64,000 nucleotides of DNA from Pseudomonas nitroreducens TX1 (lineage in GTDB: Bacteria > Pseudomonadota > Gammaproteobacteria > Pseudomonadales > Pseudomonadaceae): contig NZ_AMZB01000123.1 of the NCBI RefSeq assembly GCF_000313755.1, forward strand, positions 62,001 through 126,000. Reading direction: 5' to 3'. The position numbers and the translations under genes are program-made. Positions 21,693-25,360 of this stretch are shown one piece after another. The notes under the pieces are model-generated. The model saw nothing but the letters and a program-made list of their open reading frames with translations. It ran no database searches and was not told where the DNA came from. The stretch's first letter is position 1. Every line of letters begins with the position of its first letter.

Positions 21693-23918
21693 ATGAGCTT
21701 CGACGCCGATGACGAAATCCTCCAGGACTTCCTGGTGGAGGCCGGCGAGATTCTCGAGCTACTGTCCGAGCAACTGGTCGAGCTGGAAAGCCGTCCGGAA
21801 GACATGGACCTGCTCAATGCCATCTTCCGTGGGTTCCACACCGTCAAGGGTGGGGCGGGCTTCCTCCAGCTGAATGCGCTGGTGGAGTGCTGCCACATCG
21901 CCGAGAACGTGTTCGACATGCTGCGCAAGGGCGAACGGCGCGTGGATGCCGAGCTGATGGACGTGATGCTGCAGGCGCTGGATACCGTCAACGTCATGTT
22001 CCAGCAGGTGCGTGATGCCGAGGAGCCCACGCCGGCCACTCCCGAGCTGCTCGCCGCGCTGTCGCGCCTGGCCGACCCGAACGCCGCCCCGGCCGAAGCG
22101 TCGGCTCCAGCGCCGGTGGTTGCCGAACCGGTGGTGGAACAGGCTCCCGTTGCCGATGCCGCCTATGGCGACATCACCGATGCCGAGTTCGAGCAACTGA
22201 TGGACGCTCTGGAACCCACCGCCGATGCGGCTGCTGCGCCGGTCGGCGCTGGTGGTGACGACATCACCGACGACGAATTCGAAGCGCTGCTCGACCAGTT
22301 GCACGGCAAGGGCCAGTTCAGCGCTGGGGCCAAGGAGCCCGCCAAGGCGGCTCCGGCAGCCGAGGCTCCGGCCGCCGCTGGGGGCGACGAAATCAGCGAC
22401 GACGAGTTCGAAGCGTTGCTTGATCAACTGCATGGCAAGGGCCAGTTCACCGGTGCGAAGGAAGAAGCGCCTGCCGCTCCCACCGAGCCGGTTGCCCAGA
22501 ACAATGCCGAGCAATCGCCGGCTGCCGGCGGTGACGACAACATCACCGACGATGAATTCGAGAAGCTGCTCGACGAACTGCACGGCAAGGGCCAGTTCAC
22601 CGGCGCGAAGGAAGAGCCCGTCGTTCCTGCCAAACCGGCCGCTGCGGCGCCCGCGCCCAAACTCGCTGCTGCCGCGCCGGCCCCGGCTGCTGCGGCCAAG
22701 CCTGCCGCTGCCAAGCCCGCTGCTGCGGCTGCGGAGAAGCCATCCAACGAAGCGGAAACCACCGTGCGCGTGGACACCGCCCGTCTGGACGAGATCATGA
22801 ACATGGTCGGCGAACTGGTGCTGGTGCGTAACCGCCTGGTGCGCCTGGGCCTGAACAGCGGCGACGAGGCGATGGCCAAGGCCGTCTCCAACCTCGATGT
22901 GGTCACCGCCGACCTGCAGTCGTCGGTGATGAAGACCCGCATGCAGCCGATCAAGAAGGTCTTCGGCCGCTTCCCGCGGCAGGTCCGCGACCTGGCGCGC
23001 AACCTGAAGAAAGAGATCAACCTCGAGCTGATCGGCGAAGAGACCGACCTGGACAAGAACCTGGTCGAGGCCCTGGCCGACCCGCTGGTGCACCTGGTGC
23101 GCAACGCGGTGGACCATGGCATCGAAGGCCCGGACGAGCGCGAGGCCGCCGGCAAGTCGCGTTCGGGCAAGGTGGTACTGTCCGCCGAGCAGGAAGGCGA
23201 TCATATCCTGCTGTCGATCTCCGACGACGGCAAAGGCATGGACCCGGACGTGCTGCGCGCCAAGGCCGTGGAGAAGGGCCTGCTGGACAAGGACGCGGCC
23301 GATCGCCTGTCCGAGTCCGACTGCTACAACCTGATCTTCGCCCCGGGCTTCTCTACCAAGACCGAGATTTCCGACGTCTCCGGCCGCGGTGTCGGCATGG
23401 ACGTGGTGAAGACCAAGATTTCCCAGCTCAACGGGATCATCAACATCTACTCGACCAAGGGCCAGGGCTCGAAGATCGTCATCAAGGTCCCGCTGACCCT
23501 GGCGATCATGCCGACCCTGATGGTGATGCTGGGCAACCAGGCCTTCGCCTTCCCGCTGGTCAACGTCAACGAGATCTTCCACCTCGACCTGTCGAACACC
23601 AACGTGGTCGACGGCCAGGAAGTGGTGATCGTCCGCGACAAGGCCCTGCCGTTGTTCTACCTCAAGCGCTGGCTGGTGCCGGGCGCGCAACATGACGAGC
23701 CGGGCGAGGGCCATGTGGTGATCCTCTCCGTGGGCACCCAGCGCATCGGCTTCGTGGTCGATCAACTGGTGGGCCAGGAAGAGGTGGTGATCAAGCCGCT
23801 GGGCAAGATGCTGCAGGGCACGCCGGGCATGGCCGGGGCGACCATCACCGGGGACGGGCGCATCGCGCTGATCCTCGACGTGCCGAGCATGCTCAAGCGC
23901 TACGCCCGTCGAATCTGA
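21693..23918 (+). CDS. cheA: Chemotaxis histidine kinase CheA
   Basis: This 741-residue kinase has an N-terminal Hpt domain (phosphorylated His49 in FHTVKGGAGFLQL) and a long Ala/Pro/Glu-rich linker, then dimerisation, HATPase (HLVRNAVDHGIEGPDE) and CheW-like domains. It phosphorylates CheY and CheB in polar receptor arrays. Instead of a standard P2 domain, the linker carries three near-identical copies of a DDEFEALLDQLHGKGQF motif plus one degenerate copy, listed separately. A gap of 323 bp containing a mobile element separates it from cheB. Confidence 0.96.
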   Translation: MSFDADDEILQDFLVEAGEILELLSEQLVELESRPEDMDLLNAIFRGFHTVKGGAGFLQLNALVECCHIAENVFDMLRKGERRVDAELMDVMLQALDTVNVMFQQVRDAEEPTPATPELLAALSRLADPNAAPAEASAPAPVVAEPVVEQAPVADAAYGDITDAEFEQLMDALEPTADAAAAPVGAGGDDITDDEFEALLDQLHGKGQFSAGAKEPAKAAPAAEAPAAAGGDEISDDEFEALLDQLHGKGQFTGAKEEAPAAPTEPVAQNNAEQSPAAGGDDNITDDEFEKLLDELHGKGQFTGAKEEPVVPAKPAAAAPAPKLAAAAPAPAAAAKPAAAKPAAAAAEKPSNEAETTVRVDTARLDEIMNMVGELVLVRNRLVRLGLNSGDEAMAKAVSNLDVVTADLQSSVMKTRMQPIKKVFGRFPRQVRDLARNLKKEINLELIGEETDLDKNLVEALADPLVHLVRNAVDHGIEGPDEREAAGKSRSGKVVLSAEQEGDHILLSISDDGKGMDPDVLRAKAVEKGLLDKDAADRLSESDCYNLIFAPGFSTKTEISDVSGRGVGMDVVKTKISQLNGIINIYSTKGQGSKIVIKVPLTLAIMPTLMVMLGNQAFAFPLVNVNEIFHLDLSNTNVVDGQEVVIVRDKALPLFYLKRWLVPGAQHDEPGEGHVVILSVGTQRIGFVVDQLVGQEEVVIKPLGKMLQGTPGMAGATITGDGRIALILDVPSMLKRYARRI
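22165..22605 (+). repeat. Tandem peptide repeats in the CheA linker
   Basis: This coding repeat contains a DEFEALLDQLHGKGQF-type unit at 22258-22320, 22383-22449 and 22541-22601, plus a shorter relative (ITDAEFEQLMDAL) near 22168. Spacers are Ala/Pro/Glu-rich. Each unit looks like a short amphipathic helix in a disordered linker, suggesting repeated docking sites. In-frame expansion is the likely origin. Confidence 0.85.
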
Positions 23919-23920
23919 CA

Positions 23921-24188
23921 ATAGGGTCAGTTGACGATTCGCCACGGCCGCGACGGAGCCACATTTTGCGCAGGCCAAGGCACGAGGAGATAGGTTTGGT
24001 TATTCCAAATGAGCCAGTAACGCAGCGCGGCGCAAAATGCGGCCCCGTCCCTTCGGGTTGCGCGGCAAATCACGCCATGCGTCGTTGCGGAACTCGACAA
24101 GGGAATGCCATTGCCGTCGTTCCGCGTCTAGCCTGGCGTGATTTGGCGCAGCAACGCGGCTCGCGCCGAATCGTCAACTGACCCTATG
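23921..24188. mobile_element. 268-bp MITE-like element between cheA and cheB
   Basis: Perfect 21-bp terminal inverted repeats (23921-23941 and 24168-24188) bound this element, which starts 3 bp after the cheA stop. Inside are two more stems. One is a 14-bp pair with one mismatch (23958-23971 with 24030-24043); the other is a perfect 12-bp pair, CAAATCACGCCA (24066-24077) with its complement (24135-24146). No convincing gene lies within. TA at both inner edges could be a target duplication, as in IS630/mariner elements, but this is only suggestive. The sequence fills most of the 323-bp gap; the remaining 53 bp carry the cheB ribosome-binding site (CAGGAG). Confidence 0.8.
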
Positions 24189-24241
24189 GGCGTGCCGCTT
24201 GGCGTGCCCGTGTGATGGAAGCAGTTTTTTCAGGAGTGTCT

Positions 24242-25360
24242 ATGGCTGTCAAAGTCCTGGTGGTGGACGATTCGGGGTTCTTCCGCCGCCGTGTCTCGGA
24301 GATTCTTTCGGCTGACCCGCAGATCCAGGTGGTCGGCACGGCGACCAACGGCCGCGAGGCGATTGATCAGGCGCTGGCGCTCAAGCCGGACGTGATCACC
24401 ATGGACTACGAAATGCCGCTGATGGACGGCATCACCGCCGTGCGGACCATCATGCAGCGCTGCCCGACGCCGGTCCTGATGTTCTCCTCGCTGACTCACG
24501 AAGGCGCGCGGGTGACCCTGGATGCGCTGGATGCCGGCGCGGTGGATTACCTGCCGAAGAATTTCGAGGACATCTCGCGCAACCCGGACAAGGTCCGCCA
24601 GCTGCTGTGCGAGAAGGTCCACACCATCGCCAGGAGCAACCGCCGCTTCGCCGCGTACTCTTCATACTCGTCGAGCCCGGCCGCATCGGCTTCGACTCCC
24701 GCTGCCGGCAGCGCGCGCCCGGCCGCTCCCGTTTCCTCGGGCGGCAGCCATGCGCCGGCCGCTCCGGCTCCGGCGACCTCTGCCGCCCCAAAGCGTAAGC
24801 CCTACCGGCTGGTAGCCATCGGCACTTCGACCGGTGGGCCGGTGGCGCTGCAGCGGGTCCTGACCCAGCTGCCTGCCAACTTCCCGGCGCCCCTGGTGCT
24901 GATCCAGCACATGCCGGCGGCCTTTACCAAGGCCTTCGCCGAGCGCCTGGACAAGCTGTGCAAGATCACCGTCAAGGAAGCCGAGGACGGCGACATCCTG
25001 CGTCCCGGCGTGGCCCTGCTGGCTCCAGGCGGCAAGCAGATGATGGTCGACGCGCGTGGCGCCGTGCGTATCCTGCCCGGCGATGAGCGGCTGAACTACA
25101 AGCCCTGCGTCGACGTGACCTTCGGTTCCGCGTCCAAGGCCTATGGCGACAAGGTCCTGGCGGTGGTGCTCACCGGCATGGGCGCCGATGGCCGCGAAGG
25201 CGCGCGGATGCTCAAGCAGGGCGGCGCCCAGGTCTGGGCCCAGGATGAAGCCAGCTGCGTGATCTACGGCATGCCCATGGCGATCGCCAAGGCAGGCCTG
25301 GCCGACGCGGTTTACAGCCTCGACGACATCGGCCGGCACCTGACCGAGGCCTGCGGCTGA
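24242..25360 (+). CDS. cheB: Chemotaxis methylesterase/glutamine deamidase CheB
   Basis: This 372-residue protein has a receiver domain (acidic pair near residues 9-10, phospho-Asp in [12 protein letters not shown]), an Ala/Ser/Pro-rich linker, and a methylesterase domain. The latter has the catalytic Ser in [11 protein letters not shown], His in IQHMPAAF and Asp in GMGADGREG. It removes methyl groups from receptors for adaptation. The ATG at 24242 follows CAGGAG; an earlier in-frame ATG at 24212 would add non-family residues. Its stop overlaps the motC start (TGATG). Confidence 0.96.

Follow-up and report, generated by a model that had tools for sequence, protein, structure and literature searches.

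A two-hairpin MITE between cheA and cheB of Pseudomonas nitroreducens TX1, from a family that shares its ends with IS5 elements

Introduction

The small mobile elements of bacteria known as MITEs are usually viewed as decayed insertion sequences (IS) whose interiors are passive. The Correia elements of Neisseria are small, TA-flanked mobile elements that fold; they are shorter than the element described here and have other ends. Tn3-derived TIMEs carry 38-bp ends and a 5-bp duplication. ISPa67 and its relatives, members of the IS5 family with DUF4096 and DDE_Tnp_1 domains, resemble the present element in their end sequence (TAGGGTCTGTTG...) and in the TA beside both ends, but they encode a transposase, and by eye the sequence they share with it is limited to some 20 bp at the ends.

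Among the described miniature elements, QMITE1 of Coxiella burnetii (PMC5896051) is described as a palindromic MITE of 300–400 bp with terminal repeats of 21–28 nt and a very stable predicted fold, features that recall the element reported here, but it has short direct repeats of variable sequence and internal sigma-70 promoters; its authors report that they found no orthologues in other genomes. TIMEs are likewise miniature inverted-repeat elements of Pseudomonas but are given a Tn3-family origin (PMC4133298). MITEPsy3 of P. syringae pv. actinidiae is also a dispersed Pseudomonas MITE, which its authors think is moved by a resident IS; it differs in being 102 bp long and linked to ISPsy25 (PMC6053426). 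No description of the family treated below was found in the open-access literature, subscription papers being outside the scope of that search.

The window analysed is a stretch of 64,000 nt from Pseudomonas nitroreducens TX1 (contig NZ_AMZB01000123.1, positions 62,001 to 126,000). Across the family of the MITE that it carries, the interior has stayed paired although many changes have altered both sides of its stems. The ends vary from copy to copy, and twice they were found to agree with those of an IS5 element, either resident or related. The fold as a functional part of a MITE, and the simultaneous exchange of both ends, thereby become testable questions, and the family to which this recurrent repeat in Pseudomonas and relatives probably belongs is corrected.

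Results and Discussion

The element and its neighbouring features are listed in Table 1. The flanking genes had been taken for cheA and cheB, with which the Pfam domains agree, and the 323-nt gap between the cheA stop and the cheB ATG was found as described. The original prediction placed a 268-bp element at 23921–24188; its start, 3 nt past the cheA stop, stands, while the end lies one base earlier, at 24187, giving a length of 267 bp. The perfect 21-bp terminal inverted repeats and the TA at both inner ends are present (extended to 26 bp, the ends agree at 92%). Two internal stems had also been proposed, and they correspond to inverted repeats of 20 bp (90%) and 19 bp (89%) within an RNA fold of −150.7 kcal/mol on the + strand (z = −9.75) and −161.1 kcal/mol on the − strand (z = −12.53), which none of 200 shuffles equalled on either strand. 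The gene caller predicts no gene inside, so the element has the short length, terminal inverted repeats and lack of a transposase gene of a MITE. An Rfam scan of 23500–24500 returned seven matches at E ≤ 10, none reaching the threshold of its family. Two identifications were tried and rejected: in the window copy, hairpin A aligned with the inverted hairpin B scores 9.5, which is not significant when shuffles reach up to 11.0, and the 21-bp ends and TA flanks do not fit the Tn3-type ends and duplication of a TIME.

Table 1. Features of the cheA–cheB junction and of the MITE within it (window coordinates).
Feature	Position	Strand	Remarks
cheA, upstream neighbour	21693..23918	+	ORF; Pfam Hpt, H-kinase_dim, HATPase_c, CheW
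cheA stop TGA	23916-23918
Whole MITE including TA flanks	23921..24187	+	267 bp; body GGG...CCC at 23924-24184
Left terminal inverted repeat	23921..23941	+	ATAGGGTCAGTTGACGATTCG; 21 bp, perfect against the right one
Left TA of presumed TA target-site duplication	23922..23923	.	sequence and family pattern
Hairpin A	23952..24049	+	arms 23952-23971 / 24030-24049; inverted repeat, RNA fold, covariation
Hairpin A apex motif	23998-24006		GGTTATTCC
Central mini-hairpin	24049..24057	+	CCCTTCGGG; pattern CCCNNN(N)GGG
Hairpin B	24062..24149	+	arms 24062-24080 / 24131-24149; inverted repeat, RNA fold, covariation
Right terminal inverted repeat	24167..24187	-	CGAATCGTCAACTGACCCTAT
Right TA of presumed TA target-site duplication	24185..24186	.	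sequence and family pattern
GC-rich intercistronic inverted repeat, 3' of the element	24188..24209	+
cheB ribosome-binding site, downstream of the element	24232..24236	+	AGGAG
cheB, downstream neighbour	24242..25360	+	Pfam Response_reg, CheB_methylest; ATG at 24242

The proposal that this is a MITE-like mobile element was borne out by its copies and empty sites. Five copies occur in the genome of the window, three of them near full-length and two partial matches. The cheA–cheB gap was measured in 25 genomes of the genus: it is 323 nt long in two and 45–77 nt in the other 23, all of which are empty; the two filled gaps (G000 and G002) have the same flanks and so probably represent a single insertion. 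At a second polymorphic site (L016), G017 carries the element and several relatives, G037 and G009 among them, do not; the empty sequence continues from the same TA, and its left flank differs by a few bases. The element is therefore neither single-copy nor conserved at one place in all relatives, and dispersed copies are accompanied by empty sites both here and at L016. On the plasmids, PA83 and p2014S05-249 were compared as a possible exact empty site and rejected because their flanks are too different.

Matches at E ≤ 0.001 were obtained in 19 of the 25 genus genomes (own genome included, a few matches being short). A wider sample of 37 genomes included 18 with a match, every one of them a member of this genus; the 13 genomes that represent other families of the order gave no match. 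A draw across the family, with at most seven candidates scored per genome, gave matches at E ≤ 1e-20 in 26 of 99 genomes and 10 of 19 genera. Four plasmid records carry the element (two from Azotobacter, one each from Pseudomonas aeruginosa and Halomonas), and phage records gave no match. An 18-bp end string was found in at least 120 stretches of named genomes, the matches listed including Stutzerimonas, Pseudomonas, Azotobacter, Halomonas, Salinisphaera, Endozoicomonas, Acinetobacter, Vogesella and others, as well as one Vibrio match with one end only. At the first 80 loci the paired ends are mostly spaced near 48–58, 175–180, 262–268 or 278–280 bp, with some other distances up to 380 bp. The exact 21-mer of the window element's end had no match in the genome collection.

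Shorter forms also occur, consisting either of the ends only (52–62 bp; L113:3188-3249, L138:2045-2096) or of the ends and one hairpin (167–184 bp; L183:4556-4722, L128:1555-1738), and they look as if hairpins drop out as whole units. In eight genus genomes (L005, L082-L087, L090) a single copy lies at the same place behind a 290-aa gene, with an altered hairpin A and, by eye, with changes that restore pairs; this copy has possibly been put to use by the host.

TA flanks both ends of 87 of 132 full copies, one end of 30 and neither end of 15. A stop codon falls within −3..+3 of the element edge in over a third of the neighbouring genes examined: 32 of the 87 that lie upstream in sense orientation and 16 of the 44 that lie downstream in antisense orientation. 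These and the motif counts below (132 or 136 full copies) include all second-set matches, so that a few sites may count twice. Gene calls, here and for the orientation counts below, relied on a codon model that had been trained on the window and was applied also to lower-GC loci. The coincidence of gene ends with element edges is what insertion at the TA of stop codons would lead one to expect; the TA of a stop codon would be an obvious harmless target, and the resulting TAGGG would preserve a TAG stop. This suggests a simple rule, that the TA in stop codons lets such elements settle between the genes of an operon. As regards target-site duplication, TA at both ends is also seen in all seven recent copies of genome G089 (see below), and no base-exact ancestral site was found for the window copy. 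Several empty cheA–cheB sites have CA, not the expected TA, before TGGGCG, and duplication of TA is thus not proven at the window site.

Partners for the ends came to light in two other genomes. An end-pattern search of G089 gave two classes of end pair, seven of each, at spacings of 271 bp and 831 bp. The 271-bp miniature copies, five of which are identical and two of which have one difference, each read TA-GGG...CCC-TA; the 831-bp IS copies differ from the first of them at 0–2 positions, and all seven have TA at both ends. A 19-bp sequence, TAGGGCCTGTTAACACTAC, TA included, is common to the left end of the 831-bp IS and both 271-bp ends. The transposase frames of this IS carry Pfam DUF4096 and DDE_Tnp_1 and score 123.2 bits (one frame) and 107.6 bits (the other) against NCBIfam transpos_IS5_3, for which the cut-off is 110. 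The second pairing (L168, Stutzerimonas kirkiae) involves an 860-bp IS whose ends enclose transposase reading frames, the left end being the 18-bp search string itself and the right end having two differences. This IS matches two plasmid records at 83.4% over its full length, one of them annotated as ISPa67, an IS5-like element, and both L168 and ISPa67 are of the IS4/5 type by Pfam. Among 120 listed loci, only L168 has ends that lack a nearer partner and pair at IS distance with few mismatches. The family thus shares its ends with autonomous IS5 elements, over 19 bp in G089 and 18 bp at L168. End sequences vary among copies, and in both partner cases the miniature ends equal one IS end, the left one, which stands on both sides of the miniature element; the end variants are therefore taken to follow the IS partners.

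For the window copy's own end variant no matching IS was found. Among the 25 genus genomes, a 123-aa ISPa67-like piece gave no match at E ≤ 1e-8, a search that had no positive control and so shows little, and the whole ISPa67-like protein gave one weak match (31%) at E ≤ 1e-5; neither protein search thus yielded a convincing IS5 partner within these genomes. Six genus loci with short or end-only matches showed no IS-sized pair of ends (exact inverted repeats), except between two separate copies at L069. The window copy may therefore be an orphan, its mover either absent from the genus genomes or missed by the searches.

Conservation of the fold was assessed in 68 independent copies (from 109 sites, full length only). 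Across 62 pairs common to the folds of both strands, 4027 of 4208 cells are Watson-Crick, and 38 pairs occur as two or more Watson-Crick types. Because an exchange of ends could account for pairing in the basal stem, the hairpins were tested separately: their pairs alone are 96.2% Watson-Crick, and 21 of 38 show at least two types, against at most 15 in 200 shuffles, which ignore the relatedness of copies. Sliding the pairings by 1–3 columns reduced the Watson-Crick fraction to 28–40%, with at most four pairs of two or more types. In a second set of 51 copies (from 52 new sites) the same hairpin pairs are 97.1% Watson-Crick, with at least two types in 19 of 38 (shuffles of the same kind: at most 12); as the pairs were derived from first-set copies, only this second set is independent of the structure. 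Direct pair-to-pair changes counted on trees number 181 and 103 in the two sets. Ten distant full-length copies, from Vogesella, Salinisphaera, Acinetobacter, Halopseudomonas, P. abyssi and Endozoicomonas, all have minimum-energy folds with a basal stem, hairpin A and hairpin B, eight of them also with the mini-hairpin, and by eye their stem letters are largely different. The mini-hairpin pattern CCCNNN(N)GGG is present in 133 and the hairpin A apex motif in 76 of 136 full copies (4.25 and 0.5 in shuffles of the 136), and each is found in 9 of 12 distant copies; the hairpin B apex motif appears in just 42 of the 136 and 2 of the 12. Template-switch repair of imperfect palindromes could also make two-sided changes, and for this reason maintenance of the core fold by selection is likely but not proven.

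We consider it very probable that the element is a non-autonomous MITE that is served in trans by an IS5-family transposase and inserts at TA, and that one copy landed behind cheA. The transposase would recognise the terminal repeats, insertion would take place at a TA dinucleotide with duplication of the TA, and an enzyme of this kind would have moved the family and the window copy alike. The gene-free core would be a fixed fold made of an end-formed basal stem, hairpin A, the mini-hairpin and hairpin B, maintained either by selection or through the way in which the element is copied. In the lineage of the window, the copy would have come to lie between the cheA stop and the intercistronic hairpin, so that a gap once about 60 nt long now measures 323 nt, with the cheB ribosome site still in place. 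Behind this account stand the dispersed copies, the empty sites, the TA flanks of most full copies, the conserved fold and, in two other genomes, the identity of the family's ends with those of IS5 elements resident there.

An alternative is that the element acts as an RNA regulator of its operon (a leader, attenuator or processing site) and was placed between cheA and cheB for that function. The strong conserved fold would suit such a role, as would the copy kept in place with, by eye, pair-restoring changes in eight genomes and the fact that two separate operons have a copy where a CheA-type gene is followed by a CheB-type one, but the element is missing from 23 of 25 cheA–cheB gaps and 22 of 25 wspE–wspF junctions, and neither a promoter nor a terminator pattern nor an above-threshold Rfam family was found at the cheA–cheB junction of the window. 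Orientation bears on the same question. In the first set the + strand is sense with both neighbours at 47 sites and antisense at 13, a count that excludes matches of fewer than 100 model positions or with a strand difference below 15 bits, duplicate loci and L039-L068, and leaves 20 of 109 sites unclassed at contig edges; the second set gave 19 against 12, which is not significant alone (p = 0.28), and the pooled figure is 66 against 25. There is thus a moderate tendency for the element to be oriented sense to its neighbours, but G.U pairs are not favoured on the + strand, and overall we regard a regulatory origin as improbable.

The strand-specific mismatches might instead speak for a REPIN-like or single-strand element that owes its movement to an enzyme of the REP type (RAYT/IS200-like), a reading for which the hairpins with paired changes could also be cited. 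On the + strand of the first set, A.C mismatches outnumber G.U by 82 to 34 origins, which differs from unpaired sites (p = 5e-5), but the asymmetry was not repeated in the second set (40 to 29, against 126 to 115 at unpaired sites, p = 0.42). The pooled value is p = 3e-4; given its absence from the second set the asymmetry is treated as unconfirmed and not built on, and a strand-specific RNA function was set aside on the same grounds. Nor is there a significant bias with respect to the direction of replication (19 against 11, p = 0.20, shared sites being counted more than once), and the long TA-flanked inverted ends are shared with DDE elements; this reading appears highly unlikely. The IS630/Tc1-mariner origin hinted at in the original prediction fares no better. 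It accords with a TA target and TA at the inner ends, and an annotated IS630 gene adjoins one Azotobacter copy, but the family shares its end sequence with IS5-family elements (transpos_IS5_3) in two cases and the Azotobacter gene lies outside the element and by eye looks inserted at the CTAG of its edge; we give this origin very little credence. The Azotobacter plasmids show this IS630-type element at the MITE-edge CTAG at L265:2744-3930, and around 2490-2510 of L262 an IS630-like end abuts an element copy.

At the cheA–cheB junction itself, an exact inverted repeat of at least 6 bp, variable in sequence, is present in 21 of the 23 empty gaps, and AGGAGTGT stands at the position of the cheB ribosome site in both filled and 18 of the 23 empty sites. 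No promoter-like or terminator-like sites were found in 23850–24260, a weak test given that shuffles yield just 0.2 and 0.4. As such patterns were not detected and cheB keeps its own ribosome site, our best guess from the sequence is that the effect of the insertion on cheB is probably mild; a change in cheA:cheB stoichiometry through the element, as proposed at the outset, would not be favoured.

In 3 of the 25 genomes (G012, G008 and G020, in the last of which it is found on two contig ends) a copy also separates a CheA-type kinase gene from a gene of the CheB type. In G012 the domain search placed a GGDEF response-regulator region after the CheB-type gene, and we take the three genes to be wspE, wspF and wspR. 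In most of the 22 genomes without a copy at this junction the two genes, judged by eye, overlap, and GGAGG or a similar sequence lies immediately 5' of the start. Where the junction is filled, the TAG of the element terminates the first gene, the next ATG follows 2 nt past CCCTA, and GGAGG (GGAGC in G020) precedes the element; at L105:3160-3445, and also in L106 and L107, the copy leaves about 270 nt between GGAGG and the start codon. In the predicted fold the basal stem could bring the wspF ribosome-binding site and start codon together, although some bases of the GGAGG and of the start region are themselves paired in it. Translation might alternatively begin at a GTG that lies in frame within the element. 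That two insertions fall in CheA–CheB junctions may be chance.

Beyond the IS5-moved MITE, a broader reading is conceivable, on which we lean slightly towards doubt: the family would be a modular parasite whose two-hairpin core, selected for shape, lasts across Gammaproteobacteria and Vogesella, while the end arms are swapped together to follow whichever host IS5 is active. The fold would aid propagation, for example by joining the ends or evading host control, and might bridge ribosome site and start at junctions such as wspE–wspF.

The ends may reach further still. Locus names of the lpg type, as in lpg2920-21, we take to be those of Legionella pneumophila. A primer for lpg2920-21, as given in the primer data of a toxin–antitoxin paper (PMC12457610), contains TTTAGGGTCTGTTGAC, the same end sequence, and on that stretch of primer the element family or its IS may occur where the primer derives.
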